This document shows positions 2,846-34,900 of a stretch of 64,000 bases of DNA, one piece after another. Made by a program: the position numbers and the translations under genes. Within the stretch, counting starts at the first letter, position 1, and each line of letters opens with the position of its first letter. The notes beneath the pieces were generated by a model. The model did not search any database. It was given only the letters and a program-made list of their open reading frames with translations, and was not told the DNA's origin. Origin of the DNA: Candidatus Competibacter sp. (lineage in GTDB: Bacteria; Pseudomonadota; Gammaproteobacteria; Competibacterales; Competibacteraceae); NCBI GenBank assembly GCA_029624815.1, contig JARSSH010000041.1, positions 1 to 64,000 of the forward strand, in the 5' to 3' direction.

Positions 2846-4063
2846 ATGCCCACATCCTCCGTTTCCCCCACCGATTTCGCCCCCCTGCGCCTGCGCAAGG
2901 ACGAAGACCGCCGCCTGCGCGCCGGCCATCTCTGGGTCTACAGCAACGAAATCGACACCGGCGTGACCCCCCTGCGCAATTTCCAGCCCGGCCAGCCGGT
3001 GGCGATTCAAGCCAGCAACGGCAAAACGCTCGGCACCGGTTACATCAATCCGCACGCGCTGCTGTGCGCCCGGTTGGTCAGCCGCGACTTGGAGCATCCC
3101 ATCGGCCCCTCGCTGCTGGTGCATCGCCTCAACGTGGCGCTGAGCCTGCGCGAGCGGCTGTACGATCGGCCGTTCTACCGCTTGATTTACGGCGAGGGCG
3201 ACGGGCTGCCGGGCTTGGTCGTGGATCGCTACGGCGACTTCTGCGTGGCGCAACTCACCACCGCCGGCATGGAACAATTGAAGGACGCTATTCTTGCCGC
3301 GCTGCAAAAAGTGTTAAATCCGACGGCGATACTATGGCGCAATGACAGTCGGGTGCGGGAGCTGGAAGGGCTGGAACGCACCGTCGCCGAAGCTGCCGGC
3401 GTGGTTCCGGAAACCGTGACGGTCGAGGAAGACGGGCTGTGTTTCCAGGTGTCGCCGCGTGCCGGGCAGAAAACCGGCTGGTTCTACGATCAGCGCGACA
3501 ATCGCGCCCGGCTGGATCGTTACGTGGCCGGTCGTCGAGTGCTGGACATGTTCAGCTACGTCGGCGCTTGGGGCGTGCGCGCGGCGGCGCGCGGCGCCCG
3601 CGAAGTGCTGTGCGTGGATTCGTCCGCAACCGCGCTGGAGCAAGCGATGGCCAACGCGGCGCGCAATGGGGTCGGCGAGCAGGTCAGAACCGAGCAGGGC
3701 GACGCTTTCGAGGTATTGAAGGCGTTGCGCGAAGCTCGTGAGCGCTTCGATGTGGTGGTCGTGGACCCACCGGCCTTCATCAAACGCCGCAAGGATTTCA
3801 AGGAAGGCGCGCTGGCCTACCGGCGGCTCAACGAAATGGCGATGCAGGTGCTGGAACGCGATGGGCTGCTGGTGTCTTGCTCCTGCTCGCAGTTGTTCTC
3901 CCGCGATGTGTTGGTGCATACCCTGTTGCAGGGGTCGCGGCATCTGGATCGCAATCTGCTGATTCTGGAGCAGGGCCGACAGGGACCGGATCATCCGGTC
4001 CTTCCAGCGATTCCCGAAACCGACTATCTCAAGGCGCTATTCGCACGGGTGCTGCCGGCCTGA
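2846..4063 (+). CDS. rlmI: 23S rRNA (cytosine-C5)-methyltransferase RlmI-like
   Basis: 405 residues, close to the 396 of E. coli RlmI (YccW), which makes m5C1962 in 23S rRNA. The N-terminal 85 residues form a PUA-type RNA-binding domain (LRLRKDEDRRLRAGHLWVYSNEI). A linker follows with YGEGDGLPGLVVDRYGD. The Rossmann methyltransferase part has the SAM-binding LDMFSYVGAWGVRAA near residue 233, the acidic VLCVDSS, the DPPAFIKRRKDF motif near 307 and SCSCSQLFSRD near 345, which holds the family cysteine. ATG at 2846. It follows the Uma2 scar, and a TATACT at 2804-2809 may be its -10. Confidence 0.88.
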   Translation: MPTSSVSPTDFAPLRLRKDEDRRLRAGHLWVYSNEIDTGVTPLRNFQPGQPVAIQASNGKTLGTGYINPHALLCARLVSRDLEHPIGPSLLVHRLNVALSLRERLYDRPFYRLIYGEGDGLPGLVVDRYGDFCVAQLTTAGMEQLKDAILAALQKVLNPTAILWRNDSRVRELEGLERTVAEAAGVVPETVTVEEDGLCFQVSPRAGQKTGWFYDQRDNRARLDRYVAGRRVLDMFSYVGAWGVRAAARGAREVLCVDSSATALEQAMANAARNGVGEQVRTEQGDAFEVLKALREARERFDVVVVDPPAFIKRRKDFKEGALAYRRLNEMAMQVLERDGLLVSCSCSQLFSRDVLVHTLLQGSRHLDRNLLILEQGRQGPDHPVLPAIPETDYLKALFARVLPA

Positions 4064-4109
4064 AAAAGACAGGATCGATCCCATGCAAACAATCTAAGGG
4101 TCCGGAGCG

Positions 4110-4391
4110 ATGAACGAGCAGGATTTTCACCACCTGATTCGGGTACTGGAAGAAATACGCGACCATCAAAAGTTGCAACTGGAGCGCCAGGCCGAGGCGC
4201 TGGCATTGCAGCGCGAGCAATTCGCGTTGGTGCGGAAGCAAACCGAACGCGCCGAGCGCCTACAGGATCGCGCCGAGCACATCCAGGCCAAAAGCGCGCA
4301 ACTGGTCGCCGGCGCCCGCAAGGCGATGGTGGTCGTCCTGCCCATTCTCATCGCGCTCATCGCTTACCTGACTTGGCTCATCTTTCGTTGA
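4110..4391 (+). CDS. Small tail-anchored coiled-coil membrane protein
   Basis: 93 residues; ATG at 4110 with GGAG seven bases upstream. Residues 1-70 are charged and helical with heptad spacing (LIRVLEEIRDHQKLQLERQ, then REQFALVRKQTERAERLQDR), predicting a coiled coil. Residues 73-92 (VVVLPILIALIAYLTWLIF) form a single C-terminal membrane helix ending in Arg. The cytoplasmic coiled coil is thus probably anchored to the inner membrane. No specific family is recognised. It lies between rlmI and lgt, about 46 and 125 bases away. Confidence 0.7.
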   Translation: MNEQDFHHLIRVLEEIRDHQKLQLERQAEALALQREQFALVRKQTERAERLQDRAEHIQAKSAQLVAGARKAMVVVLPILIALIAYLTWLIFR

Positions 4392-5440: not shown

Positions 5441-6661
5441 CTATCCTCGGCACTCGATCTTGAGCACAAAATCGCGGGCTTCGGCGGCGATGTCGGCGGT
5501 GAAACGGGAGGAGCGCGGCGCGCGGCTCTGGTAATCCACCCCGACCGCCTCCAGGAACCCGCGCGCCAGCGCCGACTTGATGGCGAAATTGACGTTCTGC
5601 GGGATGTCGCCGGTCATCTCGTGCACCCGAACCACGTTCAGCTTCGAGCTGACCACGCCCACCACCGCGCCGTCGCCGTCCAGCAGCGGGCCGCCACTGT
5701 TGCCGGCTTGGGTGGGCGCGGTGAATTGCAGGGCGCGGGTATCGTCGCCGGGGCCGATCAGAGAGCTGACATTGCCGGTGGTTACCTGCGGCCCCGATCC
5801 GAGCAACCCACCCAGCGGATAGCCGACCACGATCACCGTCTCCCCCAGGCGGGCCGGCACACCCTCACGGAATACCGCCACGCCGGGCAGAGGAGTATCG
5901 GATCGCAGCAGCGCCAGATCGTTGGTCGGGTCGGCGAACACCGGCTCCAGCCGACAGCGCTGGCGTGGCGAGCGGGCCAGGATTTCGTTCGCGCCCTCGA
6001 TGACGTGATGATTGGTCAGCACGTAGCCTTCCGGGTGCACGCAGAATCCGGTGCCGCTGAACGAAGCGGGAGCGCCCGGCCGCGCCGGTTCGCGCCGCTG
6101 CCCCGGTCCGCCAGCGGAACGTTCGTCCGGCGCGGGCTCCGGCAGGCGCAGGCCGAAATGCGCCGCCAGCGCCGGCAGACCCGCCGCGAACCCCTGTCCC
6201 ACCGCCCGGAATTTCCATTGCCCCTGGTGACGATAGAGTTCCGCCAGGATCATGGCGGTTTCGCCGCGGCTGGCCAGCGGCAGCGGAAAAACCAGCAGCG
6301 GCTGACCCGCCGCGTCCGCCAGCCAGCATCGAATCGCGGCGAACACCGCGAAGGTCGTCCCTGACCCCAAGCCGGGCCTCACCGCCAGCACGATGGCGAT
6401 CCGGGCCGCCGCCGCCGGCACGGCGTCCAGGTCCAGCCGGAACTCGCCCGGCGGCTCGGCGAACGCCACCGATCCATCGCGGGATCGCGGCTGCTCGGCG
6501 CTCACCAGATCGTCGGGGTCAAGAATCCGGCCATCGGCGGCCAGCAGCAGCGCGCCCGCCTGGGTCTTGGCGAGAAATTCCTCGCGCGGCTCGCTGGCGA
6601 CGCCGATGACAACCCGACCGTGACCGATCGGGCGATTTTGTCCGGGCTGAAGTTCCTGCAT
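5441..6661 (-). CDS. TerD-domain/trypsin-like serine protease fusion
   Basis: 406 residues; ATG at 6661 with a strong GAGGAG ribosome site. Residues about 1-175 read as a TerD/stress-response domain: a RPIGHGRVVIGV strand, RIAIVLAVRPGLGSGTTF, and the typical RGETAMILAELYRHQGQWKF followed by GQGFAAGLPALAAHFGL. Residues about 200-390 are a trypsin/HtrA-type protease with His219 (TNHHVIEG), Asp248 (TNDLALL) and Ser322 (AGNSGGPLL). No signal peptide or PDZ domain is visible, so it is probably cytoplasmic, as TerD proteins are. TerD proteins bind calcium and belong to the tellurite and chemical stress system; here the protease may act on targets chosen by that domain (inference). It starts 83 bases after pqiC on the same strand and may be read with the pqi operon. 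Confidence 0.8.
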   Translation of the reverse strand: MQELQPGQNRPIGHGRVVIGVASEPREEFLAKTQAGALLLAADGRILDPDDLVSAEQPRSRDGSVAFAEPPGEFRLDLDAVPAAAARIAIVLAVRPGLGSGTTFAVFAAIRCWLADAAGQPLLVFPLPLASRGETAMILAELYRHQGQWKFRAVGQGFAAGLPALAAHFGLRLPEPAPDERSAGGPGQRREPARPGAPASFSGTGFCVHPEGYVLTNHHVIEGANEILARSPRQRCRLEPVFADPTNDLALLRSDTPLPGVAVFREGVPARLGETVIVVGYPLGGLLGSGPQVTTGNVSSLIGPGDDTRALQFTAPTQAGNSGGPLLDGDGAVVGVVSSKLNVVRVHEMTGDIPQNVNFAIKSALARGFLEAVGVDYQSRAPRSSRFTADIAAEARDFVLKIECRG

Positions 6662-6744
6662 GACCGCTCCTCTTCCCGCCGCCGGCCGTTCCAATCGCCA
6701 GCGAAACGGCTTCGATCAAAGACAAGCCGGCCGGCGGAACCCAG

Positions 6745-7368
6745 TCAACGGCCGGAGCCGGCGGACGACGACTCCGCAATCCTCGACGCCACATCGCGAC
6801 TGAACGCTTCCAGATTTTGGTTCATGGCGGCCACCGTCGCGGCGTAATCCGGCCCGGCCGGGGTGTCCCGGTAGGTCGAGGCGCGCGCCAGCAGCTCTTT
6901 GCCGCCGCCGTCCAACACGCGCCAGCGCGCGGCCAGCACGCTCTCCCCATTTTCCAGCCGATCAAAACGGGTGACCTGAACGGTGACTTGATAATCGACC
7001 GGCGTCGCCCGCTTCCAGGGATAGACCGAGACCCGCTGGCTCGGCAGCAGCGCCGCCAGATTCTCGGCCAACACTCGGGTCGTATTGTCCTTCAGGGATT
7101 CGGCCCAGCGGTCGAAATCGGCCATGTTCAACTCGTTGTGGCTGGTGCGGGTCACGATTTGAGGCCGGTCGAGGTATTCCGGCAATTCCACCGGGCCGAC
7201 GCCGACGGCCAACTCCCGGACCGCCGCGCCGCCCGGTCCCACCGGGGCGGCCACCGGCGCGGTGCTTAATACATAGTAGCGCACCGGTTCGCTGCCGGCG
7301 CACCCCGCGAGCGCCAACCATCCGCCCATCAGCGCTACGCGTATCGTCATTGATGGCTTGCCGTTCAT
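6745..7368 (-). CDS. pqiC: PqiC-type outer-membrane lipoprotein
   Basis: 207 residues. The ATG at 7368 overlaps the TGA of pqiB (ATGA) and has GGAG upstream; a second ATG at 7350 lacks a ribosome site. A lipoprotein signal with lipobox LAGC ends near Cys22. The ABC-transport auxiliary lipoprotein fold (DUF330/PqiC) follows: PVRYYVLSTAP, VGVGPVELPEYLDRPQIVTR, LNMADFDRWAESL, LAENLAALLPSQRV, and WRVLDGGGKELLARAS. PqiC is the outer-membrane partner of the PqiA/PqiB system that bridges inner and outer membranes for lipid traffic. The gene order pqiA-pqiA-pqiB-pqiC supports this. Confidence 0.9.
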   Translation of the reverse strand: MNGKPSMTIRVALMGGWLALAGCAGSEPVRYYVLSTAPVAAPVGPGGAAVRELAVGVGPVELPEYLDRPQIVTRTSHNELNMADFDRWAESLKDNTTRVLAENLAALLPSQRVSVYPWKRATPVDYQVTVQVTRFDRLENGESVLAARWRVLDGGGKELLARASTYRDTPAGPDYAATVAAMNQNLEAFSRDVASRIAESSSAGSGR

Positions 7369-9080
7369 TTTTTCGCTCCGGGTGCGGGTCCGCCCTTGCC
7401 GTACAGCAGGGATTCGGGATGGCGTTCCAAATGGTCGCTCAAGGTGCGGATGGAACGGGCCGCCGCCGCCAGTTCCTCCAGGGTGTTGGCGAGATCGATC
7501 ATCAGCGGCGCCTCGGGATCGACACTCTCCAAAGTGTTTCGCGCCGCTCCCAGGGTTTTCCCGGCATCGGCGGCCAGCGCGGCCACCTGCCGGTCGGCGG
7601 TTTGCGCCAGCGTCCGCACGTCTTTCAGAGTCGCGTCCAGGGAGCGGATCGCCGCTCGCCATTCCGGAGCGTTGACCAAGCGGTTGGCGCCCTGCATCGT
7701 CCCCAGCAGTTCCTGGGCGATCCGGTCCAGGGGCAGCTTGCGCAGGTTATCCAGGAGATCCAAGGCGGTTTTCTGGAAGGCTTCCAGCGCGCCCGGCACC
7801 GTGGGAATCTCAGGCTGCGGCCCGCCGTACACCAGCTCCAGCGGCGGACTATCAGGATAAAAATCCAACTCGACAAAGAGTTGGCCGGTTAGCAGGCTGC
7901 CGGTTTTCAACTGCGCCCGCAGTCCGCGCTTGACCATGTGCTCCATGCCGGGTCGACGGCCCTCCGCGCGGAGCGCGCCGTAGGTTTCATCAAACTGCTT
8001 CATCAGGTCCGGAGGCAGGATGCGTTCCAGTTCCAACTCCACCATTACCGGGACACGGATGTTACCGGTCTTCAGGTCGACGTCGAGTTTCACTTCGGTG
8101 ACCTTGCCGATCCTGAGACCGCGAATCTCCACGGGCGCGCCCACGCTCAGGCCGCGCACCGAACCTTCGAAATACATCATATAGGGATCGCGGCGGGTGT
8201 AAGACGACTCGGCGATGTCGGCAACGCTGTCGTACAACCGGAACTGGGCGCCGTTCTGGCTTGGCGCGCTCGACTCGTCGTGAGCCGGGCTATCGAACGC
8301 AATGCCGCCCAGCAGCACGGACAGCAGCGATTCCATTTTCACATCGATGCCCTGCGCGCCGAGCGAGACCTCGAAACCGCTGGTTTTCCAAAACCGGCTC
8401 TGGTCGCGCACCAGACGGTCGTAGGGCGCGTTCACGAACACATGCACGAGCACGTTCCGTTTGTCTTCGGCCAACTGGGTGGTGAGTACCTCGCCCACCT
8501 GGATGTCGCGGAAATAAATCGGCGAACCGCGTTGGATCGAACCCAGCTTGTCGCTCAGCAATAGATAACGGTGGCCGGGAGTGTCGGCTCTGACGATCGG
8601 CGGCTGTTCGAGCCCGGTGAATGTCCTGGCCGGCTTGCCGCCGCCGAATTCCACCTCGATGTAGGTGCCGGACACCACGGTCTCCAGCCCCGAAACGCCG
8701 CCCAGCCCCACACGGGGCCGCACCACCCAGAACCGGCTGTCTTGGCCCAGGTGCCGCTCCACCTCCTTGTTCATCCGCGCCGTGACGATGACGTCGGACA
8801 GATCGGGACCGAACTGGACGGTTTCGACCACGCCGACCTCCAGGGCCTTGTATTTGATCTTGGTCTTGCCGGCTTCCAGACCGGTGCCCTCCCGAAAGGC
8901 GAGCGTGATGACCGGCCCCTGCTCGCTCAGCGTCTTGTAGGCCAGCCAGGCGCCGATCAGCGCCGCGACCAGGGGAATCAGCCAGACGATCGAAAAGCCG
9001 CTGCGTTTTTCCACCACCACCGCGTCGGGCACCGGATCGTTCCCGGACGGGCCCTGGTGTCGGATATCGTTATCGCTCAT
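7365..9080 (-). CDS. pqiB: Intermembrane lipid transport protein PqiB (three MCE domains)
   Basis: 571 residues (E. coli PqiB is 546). ATG at 9080 with GGAG upstream; it overlaps the end of the second pqiA by 11 bases. A short cytoplasmic start precedes one membrane helix (SIVWLIPLVAALIGAWLAYK). Three MCE/MlaD domains follow: near ITLAFREGTGLEAGKTKIKY, near GSPIYFRDIQVGEVLTTQLA, and near SVGAPVEIRGLRIGKVTEVK. A helical C-terminal part (about 425-560) would form the needle-like tunnel. MCE proteins carry phospholipids across the periplasm; PqiB spans it, with PqiA in the inner membrane and PqiC at the outer membrane. Confidence 0.93.
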   Translation of the reverse strand: MSDNDIRHQGPSGNDPVPDAVVVEKRSGFSIVWLIPLVAALIGAWLAYKTLSEQGPVITLAFREGTGLEAGKTKIKYKALEVGVVETVQFGPDLSDVIVTARMNKEVERHLGQDSRFWVVRPRVGLGGVSGLETVVSGTYIEVEFGGGKPARTFTGLEQPPIVRADTPGHRYLLLSDKLGSIQRGSPIYFRDIQVGEVLTTQLAEDKRNVLVHVFVNAPYDRLVRDQSRFWKTSGFEVSLGAQGIDVKMESLLSVLLGGIAFDSPAHDESSAPSQNGAQFRLYDSVADIAESSYTRRDPYMMYFEGSVRGLSVGAPVEIRGLRIGKVTEVKLDVDLKTGNIRVPVMVELELERILPPDLMKQFDETYGALRAEGRRPGMEHMVKRGLRAQLKTGSLLTGQLFVELDFYPDSPPLELVYGGPQPEIPTVPGALEAFQKTALDLLDNLRKLPLDRIAQELLGTMQGANRLVNAPEWRAAIRSLDATLKDVRTLAQTADRQVAALAADAGKTLGAARNTLESVDPEAPLMIDLANTLEELAAAARSIRTLSDHLERHPESLLYGKGGPAPGAKK

Positions 9081-9717
9081 TGGGGTTCTCCAGTGCATCC
9101 CAGATCAGGCGGGGATCGAAGCTCATCGCGGCGAACATGGTGACGACCACGACGGCGGCGAAGGCCAGCGCGCCCGCGCCCGGCTCGATCGTGGCGATGG
9201 CGCCGAGTTTGACCAGCGCCACCAGGATCGAAATCATGAACACGTCGATCATCGACCAGCGCCCGACCGCCTCGGTGATGCGGTACAGGACGGTGCGATC
9301 CCGGGGACGCCAGCGCGATTTGCGCCGCACCGAAACCAGCAGATAGGTCAGCGCCACCAGTTTCAGCACCGGCACGACGATGCTGGCGAAGAAGACCAGC
9401 AGGGCCAGCGGCCACAGACCCCCCGCGACCAACACCCGCACCCCGCTGAGAATGGTGTCCGGCTCGCCGTGCCCCATCGACACCACCGTCATGATCGGCA
9501 GGGTATTGGCGGGGATGTAAAGGATGAACGCGGCCAGGGTCAGCGCCCAGGCGCGGGCCATGCTGTCGGGCTTGCGTAGGTGCAAGTCGGCTCCGCAACG
9601 CGGACACAGGAGATGGCCGCCCGACGGCGGCGGCTTCCATCGACTCAACAGATGACAGGCGTGGCAGCGAACCAGTCCGGTGCGCGCCGCCGTGATGGGC
9701 AGGGAGGAGGGGGTCAT
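9070..9717 (-). CDS. pqiA: PqiA-like inner-membrane protein (second half-length copy)
   Basis: 215 residues; its ATG at 9717 overlaps the TGA of the upstream copy (ATGA). The N-terminal zinc-ribbon-like motif has two cysteine pairs, CHACH and CPRCG, about 20 residues apart. Four membrane helices follow, including ALTLAAFILYIPANTLPIMT and GLWPLALLVFFASIVVPVLK, and the typical SMIDVFMISILVALVKLG. E. coli PqiA is one 417-residue chain of two such halves; here the halves are separate genes. Works in the inner membrane with PqiB. Confidence 0.9.
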   Translation of the reverse strand: MTPSSLPITAARTGLVRCHACHLLSRWKPPPSGGHLLCPRCGADLHLRKPDSMARAWALTLAAFILYIPANTLPIMTVVSMGHGEPDTILSGVRVLVAGGLWPLALLVFFASIVVPVLKLVALTYLLVSVRRKSRWRPRDRTVLYRITEAVGRWSMIDVFMISILVALVKLGAIATIEPGAGALAFAAVVVVTMFAAMSFDPRLIWDALENPNER

Positions 9718-10355
9718 CGTCGCGTCTCCAGGCGTTCCCAGATGGCTTCCGGCTCCAGCGCGGCGTCGGTGGCGGCCATCGCCACGATCAGCGCCGCGAA
9801 GGAATACAACGCCACGCCCGGCACGATGGTCGCGATATCGGACAGCTTGACGAACGCCACCAGTACGCCCAGCAAATACACTTCGGTCATCGCCCAGGGA
9901 TGCAGGGTTTCGATCCAGCGGAACACCCAGGCCATGCGCCAGGGCCGGCGGCCGACACGCAGCGGCAACAGCACGTAGAGCAGGGCCAGAATCTTCAGCA
10001 ATGGCGCCAGGATGCTGGCGACGAACACCACCGCCGCCAGCGCCCACATACCCTGCGCGTACAGCTCCCAAACGCCGCTCAGCACCGAACTCTGTTGCCC
10101 GCGGCCCTGAAACTGGAAATCCAGCAGCGGAAAGGCATTGGCCAGCCCGAACAGGATCAGCGCCGCCAGCGCCAGCGTCAGCGCGCGTTCGATGCTGTTC
10201 GACTTGCGGGCGTACAGCAGCGCGCCGCAGCGGCCGCAGCGGGCCTTTTCGCCTTCCCGCAGTGGTCGCTTGCGATAAAGCAGATCGCAGTCGTGGCAGG
10301 CGACCAGCGCATCCGCCGCCGCCGGTGGAAAAGCTGGGGAATTGGCGTTCATCAT
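9714..10355 (-). CDS. pqiA: PqiA-like inner-membrane protein (first half-length copy)
   Basis: 213 residues from ATG 10355. A TTG at 10364 in the same frame has an AGG six bases upstream and could be the true start, adding three residues. Cysteine pairs CHDCD and CGRCG form the N-terminal ribbon. Four membrane helices follow, with the family's NAFPLLDFQFQG, APLLKILALLYVLLPL and WAMTEVYLLGVLVAFVKL. First gene of the pqiA-pqiA-pqiB-pqiC operon. A good promoter lies only 30-60 bases upstream. E. coli pqi genes respond to SoxRS; no SoxS box was identified here. Confidence 0.9.
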   Translation of the reverse strand: MMNANSPAFPPAAADALVACHDCDLLYRKRPLREGEKARCGRCGALLYARKSNSIERALTLALAALILFGLANAFPLLDFQFQGRGQQSSVLSGVWELYAQGMWALAAVVFVASILAPLLKILALLYVLLPLRVGRRPWRMAWVFRWIETLHPWAMTEVYLLGVLVAFVKLSDIATIVPGVALYSFAALIVAMAATDAALEPEAIWERLETRR

Positions 10356-10485: not shown

Positions 10486-11178
10486 TTAATCACCCGCTTC
10501 GTCGCCGGTCCGGCCACTGATCGGCGGCAGTTCGGAAAAGTCGTGGATCGCCGGAAACTCGCCCGGCGGTTTGGGCGGGTCGGCGGAATCCGGCCGCAGC
10601 ACCGACACCAGATAGGCGATCCCCTGCGCCCGCGCCGTGCGCAGGATCGCCAGGTTGTCGTCCACCAGCAGCGTCGTCGCCGGATCGAACGGTTCGACTT
10701 CCCGCAGGCGCGGCCAGAACTCCGGCTGCTCCTTGACGAAACCCAGATCGTGCGCGCAGACGATGACATCGAAATGTCCGGCCAGCCGGGTTTTTTCCAT
10801 CTTCAGCGTCAGACTGCGCGGATGGGCGTTGGTCACCAGCACCACCCGCTTGCCGGCGGTGCGCAGCGCATCCAGAAATTCCACGGCATGAGGATGCACG
10901 GCAATCAGATGCTCGATCTCGCGCTTGAGAGCGACAATATCCAATGCCAGTTCCCGGCTCCAGTAGTCCAGGCAATACCAGGCCAGTGTTCCCTCCACCA
11001 ACCGGGTCCGGTTCGCCACCTCGGCGCGGGCGCGGGCCAGTGGCAGGCCGTGGCGTTCGGCGTAGCGCACCGGCACCAATTCCCGCCAGAAATGATTGTC
11101 GAAACGCAGATCCAGCAGTGTGCCGTCCATGTCGAGCAGAACCGTTCGAATCCGCGACCAGGCTAAGGATGCGATCAT
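10486..11178 (-). CDS. yrfG: GMP/IMP nucleotidase YrfG-like HAD hydrolase
   Basis: 230 residues, near the 222 of E. coli YrfG, a HAD-superfamily 5'-nucleotidase that hydrolyses GMP and IMP. HAD motif I is VLLDMDGTLLDL with the nucleophile Asp and the acid/base Asp. Motif II is VVLVTNAHP, motif III the Lys of FVKEQPEFW, and motif IV TLLVDDNLAIL. The cap region holds NHFWRELVPVRYAERHG, which is family-typical. ATG at 11178 with GGAG upstream. It is divergent from cysQ; in many gammaproteobacteria yrfG, nudE and cysQ are neighbours, and nudE is absent here. Confidence 0.9.
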   Translation of the reverse strand: MIASLAWSRIRTVLLDMDGTLLDLRFDNHFWRELVPVRYAERHGLPLARARAEVANRTRLVEGTLAWYCLDYWSRELALDIVALKREIEHLIAVHPHAVEFLDALRTAGKRVVLVTNAHPRSLTLKMEKTRLAGHFDVIVCAHDLGFVKEQPEFWPRLREVEPFDPATTLLVDDNLAILRTARAQGIAYLVSVLRPDSADPPKPPGEFPAIHDFSELPPISGRTGDEAGD

Positions 11179-30743: not shown

Positions 30744-30779
30744 TGGTTCGCTGCATTACCTCCTGGAGTCACGACCCTC

Positions 30780-31901
30780 GTGAGTGAAATTCCCCTGCAT
30801 CCCGGCCTGCAAAAACTGGCCGCCGCGCACCGCCGGCGCCTGCGCCTGCTGGGACTGCTGTTCTTTATGGGCATGGCCGGCGCCCTGATCTTCATGATGA
30901 CCATCGCCCTGTCCGACCGCGATATGGTCAATCTGTTGATCTTCGCGGCCGCGGGTCTGGTGATGTTGCCGTCGATGGCGCTGGCGGGCGGCTTGCTGTG
31001 GCATCTGGAGCGCCGCCAAACGCGGCGCTTGAACGCGGCCAATCAAATACTGCGGGAGAATGCGCCGACGAGCGTTCGGTTGGCGCCGACCGGCCTGGCC
31101 AGCCGTCTCGGAACGCTGGTGGCGGTACAACCCGAAACGCACGCCAAGCCATCGTCGGCCGAGCCGGTTTTCGCGCTGCTCGATCCGGCATACCGCTGGG
31201 GCCGCGCGCCGCGGCGCGATCTGGCGGTCCAGTTGTATTGTTCCAAGCTGGAGCCCAATCACGAACTGGTCGCGCTCCGGGACAACGGCGGCGCCTTGCT
31301 GGGCAAGCTGGTCGCCTTGGAAAGCTACCGTCGCCAGACGCTATGGATGACGGCGGTGGCGCTGAGCCTGATCGCGCTCGGAATGGCCGTGCTGGCGGTG
31401 CTGGCGATGGGCCACCACCAGGAAGGTCAGCGACTCGAACAGGCCCAGCAGGCCGCCGCCGCCAGTGAAAGCTGGCCCCATGCGCGCGGGACGGTGCTGG
31501 ATGCTTCGGTGGTGACTCTGCGGATTCCCCGGGGGAAAACCTCGGTGACCGGCTACCGGGCGCGGGTCGAATTCGAATACAGCGTGGCGGGAAGCGCCCA
31601 TCGCGGCGATCTCCTGAGTTTCTGCCAGCCGTCCAGCCTGGAACGGTCGGTGGCCGAAGCGCGGCTGGCCCGGTATCCGGGCGGGGCGCCAGTCGAGGTC
31701 CGTTACGATCCGGCCAATCCAGGCCGAGGAGTGCTGGAGCCCGGCCACGCCGGAGAGTGCGAACCGCTGTTGGAAACGGCGTGGCGGGATTTGCTGTTGC
31801 TGATCGGGCTGATCGGGTTGCTGGCGCTGGTCGGCCTAGCGGCGGTCTGGGAATTTCGCAAGCAATGGCGGGTATTTCGCACTTGGGCGGAACCCCACTG
31901 A
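30780..31901 (+). CDS. DUF3592 membrane protein
   Basis: 373 residues from a GTG at 30780; GGAG lies about 11 bases upstream. Membrane helices at about 23-42, 49-71, 187-209 and 337-358. Between the third and fourth is a DUF3592 beta domain with the family pattern: WPHARGTVLDASV, GYRARVEFEYSVAGSAHRGD, and YPGGAPVEVRYDPANPGRGV followed by LEPG. The first loop (about 75-185) includes VALRDNGGALLGKLVALE. DUF3592 proteins are of unknown role. It follows srfB closely and the pair looks like one functional unit (inference). Confidence 0.82.
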   Translation: MSEIPLHPGLQKLAAAHRRRLRLLGLLFFMGMAGALIFMMTIALSDRDMVNLLIFAAAGLVMLPSMALAGGLLWHLERRQTRRLNAANQILRENAPTSVRLAPTGLASRLGTLVAVQPETHAKPSSAEPVFALLDPAYRWGRAPRRDLAVQLYCSKLEPNHELVALRDNGGALLGKLVALESYRRQTLWMTAVALSLIALGMAVLAVLAMGHHQEGQRLEQAQQAAAASESWPHARGTVLDASVVTLRIPRGKTSVTGYRARVEFEYSVAGSAHRGDLLSFCQPSSLERSVAEARLARYPGGAPVEVRYDPANPGRGVLEPGHAGECEPLLETAWRDLLLLIGLIGLLALVGLAAVWEFRKQWRVFRTWAEPH

Positions 31902-31916
31902 ATAATACTGTCACGC

Positions 31917-31945
31917 CTGAAAACCGTGTCAGAATGGGTTAAAAT
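31917..31945 (+). promoter_or_regulatory. Possible promoter of the GGDEF/EAL gene
   Basis: CTGAAA at 31917-31922 and TAAAAT at 31940-31945 with a 17-base spacer, four and five matches of six. The gene starts at 31982. Confidence 0.3.
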
Positions 31946-31981
31946 ACAGTACACCCATTTCTGGGTTGAGGCGGAATTCGT

Positions 31982-34900
31982 ATGCTCCATGAAACACAAC
32001 AAAGCCTCCTCGGCCGGAGTCGAACGCTTGCGCCGCGCCATCCGAGCCTTGCCTTCAAATTCCCGCTGTTCGTGCTGGCCTTGTTGCTCGTGGTGATCTG
32101 GGGGCTAGCCCTCTTCGCCGATTTTTTTCTCAAACAACATCTGGAACGCCTGCTAGCCGCCCACCAGCTTGCCGCTATTTCGGTGATCGCGGAGAGCCTC
32201 GACCAGGAAATCCGCCTGCGCGTTCGGTCGATCCAGGATCTGGCCCAGGCGGCCGGCCAGCGGGAGATCCATGGCTCGCCGGAACGACTGCGCGCCTTTC
32301 TGCAAGACCAACCCGCCATCGCCGCGCTTTTCAACGGTGGCCTGCTCGCACTCGATGCCAGCGGCGTTGTCTTGGCCGACATCCCGGCCATGCCCGGACG
32401 GGTCGGCCAGAGCCTCGCCGGTTGGGGCGATTTCGCCGCCGCGCTGGCGCAGGGCGAACCGGTCGTCGGCACGCTGCCGACGGGCGCATCGTTCGTGCGC
32501 CCGTCGATGACCATCGCCGCGCCGGTCGGATCGGCCTTCGCTCGGCCGGTCGGGGTGCTGGTCGGGATTACGCGCCTCGACACCGCCAGTTTCATTAGCC
32601 GGATTATCGGAACCTACGGTGGCGAACACGGCAGCGTGCTGATCATCGATCCTAGAAGCGGGCGATTCGTGGCGGCGACCGACCCGACCCGCATTCTCCA
32701 GCCAATTCCCGCTCCCGGCGTCAACCGGATGCATGATCGTCACATGAGGGGTCATGAAGATTCCGGCATCGCGGTCAGCTCCCGAGGCATCGAAGAGCTG
32801 TCTTCCAGCCGCCGCATTCCAGCGACAGGCTGGTTGGCCGTGGGGGTGCTGCCGACCGCCGAGGCGTTCGCGCCGGTGAAGGTCATCCAAGGCACTATCC
32901 TGAGCACGGCCCTGGCGCTGTCCGTGGTCGTGCCGTTGCTGGCCGTATGGGTGACCCGCCGATGGCTCAGGCCGCTGCGGGACGCCACCGCCGCGCTGGC
33001 CGAGATGACTTGCGGCAAACGCGCCCTGGAACCGCTACCGGTGCGGACATGCGACGAAATCGGCCAACTCATCGACAGCTTCAACCGGTTGCAGGCTCGG
33101 GTTCGCGCCAACGAACGCCTGCTGCGCGGACACTACGCTCGCCTGCAAACGGCGCTGAGCGCCGCCCGGATGCGGTTCTTCGAATGGTCGAGCACGGCGG
33201 AGGAACCGGTCGCGGCCGACCTGCTGGCGCTGGTGTGCCCACAGGATCGCGAGCGGGTGGCGGAAATTGTCGGGCGGGCGTGCGCGGCGCGCGAGCGGTT
33301 CCTGACCGAGTTTCGCAGTCCCGGCTCGAACGGTAGCGAGGCCTGGTTCATAGCGCGCGGTCAGGTGTCTCGGGAAGATCCCGAACCCGGCGTCATCGCC
33401 ATCGTCTGGGACATCACCGAATTCAAGTTGGCGGAACTGGCGCTTTACGAGAACGAGGAACGATTCGAGGCCATCGTCGATTCGCTCAACGACGCCGTGT
33501 TTCTCCAAAATGGCCAAACCGGAGAATTTCTGTACACCAACGGTCGGGCGAGCGAACTGTTCGGCTACAGCCGGGGTACTTTCTCGCGTCTGACCTTCGA
33601 TGCGCTCTGCGCGGACGACGAGGCGACCCAGCGTCGGGCGCTCGACCAGTTGGCGCAAGCGTTCGAGCATGACGATCCACAGTGCTTCGAATGCCTTGCC
33701 AGGAACGCCGGCGGCCGTCAGTTCTGGATCGAGGCCAACGTCCGCGCCGCCTGGATCGGCAATGCGCGCCGCTTGGTGGTGGTGGTGCGCGATATCGACG
33801 ACCGCAAGCTGGCCGCGCGAACTCTGCTGGAAAGCGAAAAGCGCTACCGCACCCTGCTGGATTTATCGCCGGACGCCATTTTCGTGCATCGCGACGGCGT
33901 CATGACGATGGTCAATCGCTCCGCGCTGCGCCTGTTTGGCGCCGACAGCGAAGCACGGTTGCTGGGCTTGCCGTGGAGAGAGCGGATTCACCCCGATTCC
34001 CACGAGGCGGTGGCGCAACGCCTGCGGGCGGTGCGGGATTCCGAGCAACCGATCATCTTGCCCGCCATGGAACAGCGCCATCTCCGGGTGGATGGTTCCC
34101 CGATCGAGGTCGAAGTGACGTCGAGCAGCATCCTGCTGGCCGAAGGGCGGGCGATGCTGTCGATCGCCCGCGACATCACCCAGCGCAAGCAGGATGAAGC
34201 GCGCCTCAAATCCCTGCTGGCGCAGCGGGAAGCCATTCTCGATAACGTACTGGTCGGCATCGTGCTGTTCAGGCAGCGGGTGATCACCCAGTGCAACCGC
34301 CGCTTCGAGGAGTTGTTCGGATACGGCGAGGGCGAGATGCTCGGCTGCGCGACCTTGATCCTGTATCCGACCGCGGAGGATTTCCAAACCGTCGGCGAAC
34401 GCGCCTACAACGCCCTGGCGGGTGGCGGAACCTATGTGGAGGAACTGTGGCTGAAGCGCAAGGATGGCAGTCTGTTTTGGGGCTGCCTGAACGGCCGAGC
34501 GCTGGATTCGAGCCAGCCCCAGGAAGGGAGTGTCTGGATCTACAGCGACCTGACCGCGCAAAAGCAGGGGCGCGAGCGGCTGCGGTTGGTGGCGAGCGTC
34601 TTCGAAAGCGCCGCCGAGGGGATCGTGATCACCGATCCCGATCGGACCATTCTGGCGATCAACCCGGCGTTTAGCGAGATCACCGGTTACGCCGCCGAGG
34701 AAGTGCTGGGCCGGAGTCCAAATCTCCTCCAGTCCGGCCGGCACGACACGGCGTTTTTCCAACACATGTGGCGAAGTATCGAGCAGAACGGCAAATGGCG
34801 CGGCGAGATCTGGAACCGCCGCAAGAATGGCGAGGTTTATCCGGAACTGCTCTCCATCAGCACGGTGAAGGACCAGGCCGGCTGCGTTACCCACTATGTC

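Follow-up and report, generated by a model that had tools for sequence, protein, structure and literature searches.

The joining of a TerD-type domain to a trypsin-like protease is an architecture that is not new, having been in print since 2008. It was tabulated in that year as TerD-Tryp for the Pseudomonas syringae protein YP_273108.1, and was described there as not functionally characterised (PMC2605481). In this protein the TerD domain is N-terminal to the trypsin domain, as in the fusion described here, a likeness at the level of architecture. A search of the openly licensed literature found no title on the function of a TerD-trypsin fusion. The calcium sites of Klebsiella TerD have been assigned to residues 40, 41, 42, 78, 79 and 89, and to residues 29, 82, 84 and 88 (PMC8779313). 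A survey of jumbo phages lists Ter among the phage-resistance systems, with TerB and TerD among the possible sensors of a nucleotide-like signal (PMC7824862), and a survey of conflict systems suggests that TerD might recognise nucleotide derivatives (PMC7159879).

The protein considered here is encoded in a window of 64,000 nucleotides, the whole stretch of DNA that was analysed, from a Candidatus Competibacter contig (Table 1). The TerD family (PF02342) matches its residues 4–169 at 90.2 bits, against a cut-off of 25.3, and at 92.8 bits in a second search; this is the sole PF02342 match on the contig of the window. Residues 203–336 match Trypsin_2 (PF13365) at 98.2 bits, against a cut-off of 27.6, with the whole of the model (1–144 of 144) covered. 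The occurrence of TerD and a complete trypsin-like domain in one protein is therefore confirmed as a real combination. Where genes are called Lgt, PqiA, PqiB, bioF, bioC, bioD, cysteine synthase, CysQ, ZapE, RlmI or TRSP, the names are presumptive, having been given by eye and not from a search.

Table 1. Features of the TerD-trypsin fusion locus, in window coordinates
Feature	Position	Strand	Remarks
TerD-trypsin fusion CDS	5441..6661	-	406 aa + stop; ATG at 6661, stop at 5441-5443
TerD domain, residues 4-169	6155..6652	-	TerA-type side of the tree; lacks the calcium-site residues
Variable linker, residues 170-202	6056..6154	-	
Trypsin_2 protease domain, residues 203-336	5654..6055	-	
Catalytic His219 codon (by alignment)	6005..6007	-	
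Catalytic Asp248 codon (by alignment)	5918..5920	-	
Catalytic Ser322 codon (by alignment)	5696..5698	-	motif GNSGGP
C-terminal tail, residues 337-406	5444..5653	-	invariant I402-E403-C404; no PDZ
AGGAG ribosome-binding site, 5 bases before ATG	6667..6671	-	read from sequence
pqi genes, upstream of the fusion	6745..10349	-	two PqiA halves and PqiB by eye; PqiC by Pfam ABC_trans_aux
HAD hydrolase gene	10486..11178	-	relatives directly upstream of the fusion in 13/24 loci

Structure prediction with AlphaFold recovered the TerD fold in the N-terminal half (10-residue mean pLDDT 58–91), which superposes on 3ibz with a Z score of 18.8 (rmsd 2.8 over 158 residues) and on Klebsiella TerD, 2kxt, with a Z score of 14.4 (rmsd 3.6 over 159 residues). 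The protease half was modelled with low confidence (mean pLDDT 36.9, against 50.3 for the whole protein) from shallow alignments holding 21 and 18 close sequences, and so the assignment of the protease fold rests on sequence matches; the structural hits of the model of this half were weak and are given no weight. A profile of this half matches 110 distinct solved sequences at an E-value of 0.001, the best being MucD at 1.3e-20. In the alignment H219, D248 and S322 fall on the catalytic positions of the solved MucD- and DegP-like proteases, and all three are unchanged in the 21 aligned copies (21/21). The fusion is probably an active serine protease, as judged from these residues.

The fusion shares its catalytic core and triad motifs with HtrA, DegP, DegS and MucD but differs from them in layout, having no PDZ domain, signal peptide or anchor and carrying a TerD-type domain instead. 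Pfam matches up to an E-value of 10 included TerD and protease families only and no PDZ domain, although few matches with an E-value over about 0.1 pass the HMMER filters. The HtrA-type models of NCBIfam scored far below their cut-offs, degP_htrA_DO reaching 77.1 bits against a cut-off of 416.2. Neither signal peptide nor membrane anchor was found at the N-terminus by hydropathy, and a TerD domain that begins at residue 4 leaves no space for the former. Over 11-residue spans close to the N-terminus, hydropathy peaks at 1.3, compared with 2.1–2.9 in six of seven unfused relatives and 1.0 in the seventh (L038), for which the frame was taken from the first possible start. A hidden signal peptide or an upstream start had also been considered. 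It is ruled out by the AGGAG ribosome-binding site, by a start codon that is aligned across all 21 copies (GTG in L012), and by the position of the TerD domain. As neither an export signal nor a PDZ domain was found, the protein is probably cytoplasmic. Several statements of the first-pass annotation are thus upheld: that a TerD domain is joined to a protease with a complete His219/Asp248/Ser322 triad, that signal peptide and PDZ domain are lacking, and that the protein is in layout unlike the periplasmic HtrA family.

Of 39 Competibacteraceae genomes, 24 encode the fusion intact, in one uninterrupted reading frame. In a further genome, G015 (L050, 3707-4925), it is divided in two close to the linker, by a natural break or an assembly error. 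Among the family genomes that are at least 90% complete the fusion is found in 19 of 25; some of the 14 genomes lacking it are incomplete. Column identity averages 84% over 21 copies. Alignment A2 omits L008, L022 and L026, and some of the extracted stretches are shortened by contig ends. When all 20 relatives were compared with the window copy, dN/dS was 0.15–0.35 in the TerD half and 0.05–0.15 in the protease half, with dS saturated in some of the comparisons. Both halves are under purifying selection. This conservation, together with selection, rules out the fusion as a product of chance or of annotation.

Outside the family the fusion is rare, being present in 5 of 369 genomes of the class, three of which belong to the family itself. 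A sample of the phylum, queried with the Pseudomonas fusion at an E-value of 1e-30, returned the window genome only (1/398), and the same query gave no match among phages. The further matches in the class (G113, G182 and G253) are trypsins with other N-terminal parts and no TerD domain, which share 41–50% identity with the fusion in the protease and have a related C-terminal tail. In L038, L039 and L041, which are trypsins close to the fusion protease, the N-terminal parts look by eye like Sel1 repeats or lipoprotein starts, and the C-terminal tails are similar. Among plasmids, 128 records match the Pseudomonas protein at 1e-40, and in 127 of them a single stretch covers 80% of it or more. A relative of the protease half, at 45.5% identity, is also found on plasmid pRBL16 (NZ_CP015879.1) of the environmental strain Pseudomonas citronellolis SJTE-3, which is described as non-pathogenic (PMC8779313). 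The Pseudomonas plasmid proteins (e.g. WP_010792512.1) have the same domain order as the fusion and H, D and S motifs that are intact by eye. Identity is 44–49% over the part running from late TerD to the C-terminus, and these proteins likewise lack a hydrophobic N-terminus and the calcium loop. They differ in lying inside a ter biosynthetic operon, in a far more degenerate TerD half (33.2 bits) and in forming their own branch in both trees. When the window protein was compared with plasmids by tblastn, the best rows covered at most 69% of it and began at residue 127, so that the TerD halves of the two proteins are far apart.

A link to the Ter system is the best-supported reading of the fusion, on circumstantial evidence. 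We lean, by a modest degree, towards a cytoplasmic serine endopeptidase that serves as an accessory of the Ter (tellurite, phage or stress) system. The domains, the intact triad and the purifying selection all accord with this, and gene order in more distant relatives points the same way. In five Pseudomonas plasmids the ter biosynthetic operon includes a relative of the fusion, flanked by the ATP-grasp and PRTase genes; the ATP-grasp is ATPgrasp_Ter by Pfam in the one copy scanned. In G111 and G340 the relative adjoins the PRTase-TRSP-StiP-HpcH genes; G111 has its ATP-grasp gene upstream in the opposite orientation, and none was found in the stretch from G340. The G111 copy is broken. Of the two relatives scanned with Pfam, the Pseudomonas protein makes a modest TerD match, whilst that of the G340 protein, at 24.7 bits, falls just under the cut-off of 25.3, which weakens the argument. 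G340 has two equal-scoring copies of the fusion, L047 and L048, on contigs C57 and C42.

Contig C21 of the window genome carries a core ter operon (TerD, TerA, TerB, TerC, TerD, TerD) and contig C10 the PRTase-TRSP-StiP-HpcH genes; the fusion does not adjoin the ter PRTase and StiP genes. The first-pass annotation had placed the fusion away from any other ter gene, which is correct for its surroundings but not for the genome as a whole. Upstream of the PRTase-TRSP-StiP-HpcH genes on C10 there is a glycosyltransferase-like gene (L062, 14067-15074, minus strand; Glyco_trans_1_2, 113 bits). In G028 the fusion (3125-4342) and the ter core operon (about 30750-34420) are both on contig C113, some 26 kb apart.

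Co-occurrence also favours a Ter accessory. Among the 39 family genomes another TerD match is present in all 25 that have the fusion and in 7 of the 14 that do not (p 0.0002), the fusion itself being taken to contribute a single PF02342 match to the tally of each genome. StiP is present in 22 of the 25 and in 5 of the 14 (p 0.0013). In the class, where 339 genomes were searched, StiP is found in 4 of 5 fusion genomes against 3 of 334 others. All of these comparisons ignore shared ancestry, which counts against them, as does the lack of StiP in three fusion genomes (G008, G028 and G029). Of the family genomes at least 90% complete, G001, G011 and G024 have TerD without the fusion, and G021, G022 and G023 have neither.

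TerD domains have other partners too. A second TerD fusion is encoded in the window genome (L046, contig C28, 13892-15235, minus strand), with a TerD match of 141 bits and an AIM24 match of 229 bits; its TerD domain also falls on the TerA side of the tree. A protein of 1,120 residues in G033 (L093, 1215-4574, plus strand) combines TerD with Virul_Fac (PF10139, 836 bits), and in other family genomes frames of about this size also match TerD. These fusions to AIM24 and Virul_Fac are consistent with a Ter accessory role, and the variety of partners would suit an adapter module which plugs different proteins into one system.

Whether the Competibacteraceae and Pseudomonas fusions share one origin bears on how far the plasmid operons can speak for the family. 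In the protease tree the Pseudomonas-type fusions group with those of G340 and G111 (support 97/95) and the Competibacteraceae fusions form a separate group (89/97). A single group of all 16 fusions is not rejected, with p-AU values of 0.52 in the protease tree and 0.26 in the TerD tree, and both trees carry long-branch warnings. The trees include a subset of nine Competibacteraceae fusions; L028, L030 and L033 are in neither, and L027 was excluded from the TerD tree because of its truncated start. Sequences were cut to one half (175 residues for the TerD domains of fusions, 182 for the TerA-like ones, 215 for L084), with 17 residues removed from the start of the G111 sequence. One origin is thus neither shown nor rejected and, with the TerD halves so far apart, this tells against the Ter accessory reading. 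So does the unfused trypsin of G253 which, at 50% identity in the protease compared with 44–49% for the fused relatives, is as close as they are and makes two origins possible. If there were two, the same pairing would have arisen twice in ter-bearing bacteria.

Work on tellurite resistance also tells against the Ter accessory reading. When ter genes of P. citronellolis SJTE-3 were cloned in E. coli, terCD or terCE was enough to make it resistant to tellurite (PMC8779313), and the fusion would on this evidence not be needed for that phenotype.

Gene order within the family offers a further objection to the Ter accessory reading, as the loci seen are not inside a ter locus. Across 24 loci, that of the window and 23 others, the gene directly upstream of the fusion is a HAD hydrolase in 13, a pqi gene in 4 and neither in 7; the upstream genes of L010, L013, L018 and L050 are biotin-like by eye. 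The fusion gene is without a fixed partner in the Competibacteraceae. Such scattered positions away from ter loci, together with the HtrA-like catalytic core and the strong conservation within the family, could instead indicate a general cytoplasmic quality-control protease, in which the TerD-type domain would stand in for PDZ by binding substrates or by oligomerising, and would have no functional tie to Ter. This is unlikely in our judgement, given that relatives stand beside ter biosynthetic genes in the five Pseudomonas plasmids, G111 and G340, and that the fusion is absent from the seven family genomes which have no TerD match at all.

A little less probable again is a dormant immune effector, activated by a Ter-made signal or by phage attack, which would cut cell proteins and stop growth. 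The notion draws on a survey that counts Ter with the phage-inhibition systems in which enzymes make a signal, TerD being a possible sensor (PMC7824862), and on the presence of trypsin domains in other conflict systems (PMC7159879). The protease half also resembles the RT-Protease models of PADLOC, but the match is limited to the common protease part. In the systems covered by the conflict-system survey nearly all trypsins in effector position are inactive (PMC7159879), unlike the fusion with its intact triad. The neighbours of the fusion in the family, many of them named by eye, look like housekeeping genes, which also tells against an immune effector.

The first-pass annotation had proposed a cytoplasmic protease that senses calcium or stress. 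In favour of calcium, the TerD of Klebsiella binds it (PMC8779313) and the fold is shared, but the idea is not sustained by the residues concerned. The numbering of the Klebsiella sites agrees with that of the 2kxt chain from residue 41 onwards, and the positions were mapped through a canonical TerD of the Pseudomonas plasmid. In the alignment the window protein has K at position 40, Q at 42 and P/G at 88/89, and the loop 78–84 is deleted; position 29, Trp in canonical TerD, is S. Acidic residues are absent from 40, 42, 88 and 89 in the nine Competibacteraceae copies compared, each of which is also missing 78–84. Five copies from Pseudomonas and Burkholderia are likewise without an acidic residue at positions 40, 42, 88 and 89, and the copies of G340 and G111 retain D40 only. 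By this alignment the TerD half has lost the canonical calcium-binding residues. In an unrooted TerD tree 16 fusion and 5 TerA-type domains are split from 12 canonical TerD domains with support of 99/98, although the TerA-type domains do not cluster together there. TerA-type domains lack the calcium loop, as the fusion does, but they have no protease; the TerA of the window genome is TerD alone in Pfam. With the ligand residues lost and the fusion domains on the TerA-type side of the tree, calcium sensing is very improbable, and a TerD match by itself does not imply it.

Equally remote is an envelope protease working with the pqi lipid-transport genes. In its favour, pqi immediately precedes the fusion, in the same orientation, in the window and in three relatives. 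Against it, the fusion has no export signal, and the adjacency described by the first-pass annotation is seen in just these 4 of the 24 loci. In three of the four (the window, L007 and L008) the pqi genes separate the HAD gene from the fusion, as if inserted there; in the fourth, L012, no HAD gene was found in the stretch. A promoter scan at the locus found no sigma-70-like site. Terminator-like sites numbered five, against 1.5 expected, and two of these are inside the genes on either side.

If the fusion is an accessory of Ter, the domains suggest how it might work. A TerD fold of the TerA side, its calcium binding lost, would act as a docking or ligand-sensing module, and the variable linker would hold an HtrA-like catalytic domain without PDZ, the TerD-type domain providing localisation, switching or both in place of PDZ. 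The protease might then be recruited to its substrates, or activated, on contact with other Ter proteins or with a small molecule, the presumed product of the Ter biosynthetic enzymes. The location, the catalytic activity, the docking or sensing role and any substrate are all things that we infer. A wider and more tentative proposal, to which we give distinctly less than an even chance, is that Ter has a proteolytic output. A calcium-less plug of the TerA type would sense or dock, the protease would cut selected cytoplasmic proteins upon a Ter signal, and TerD plugs, found also on AIM24 and Virul_Fac, would be a general adapter wiring outputs to Ter.

A Ter-type domain is here covalently tied to a protease with an intact triad, the pairing is under selection in one bacterial family, and in Pseudomonas plasmids it stands within a ter biosynthetic operon. 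Together these provide a testable handle on the role of Ter; finding the trigger and the substrate of the protease would read out part of the Ter pathway.
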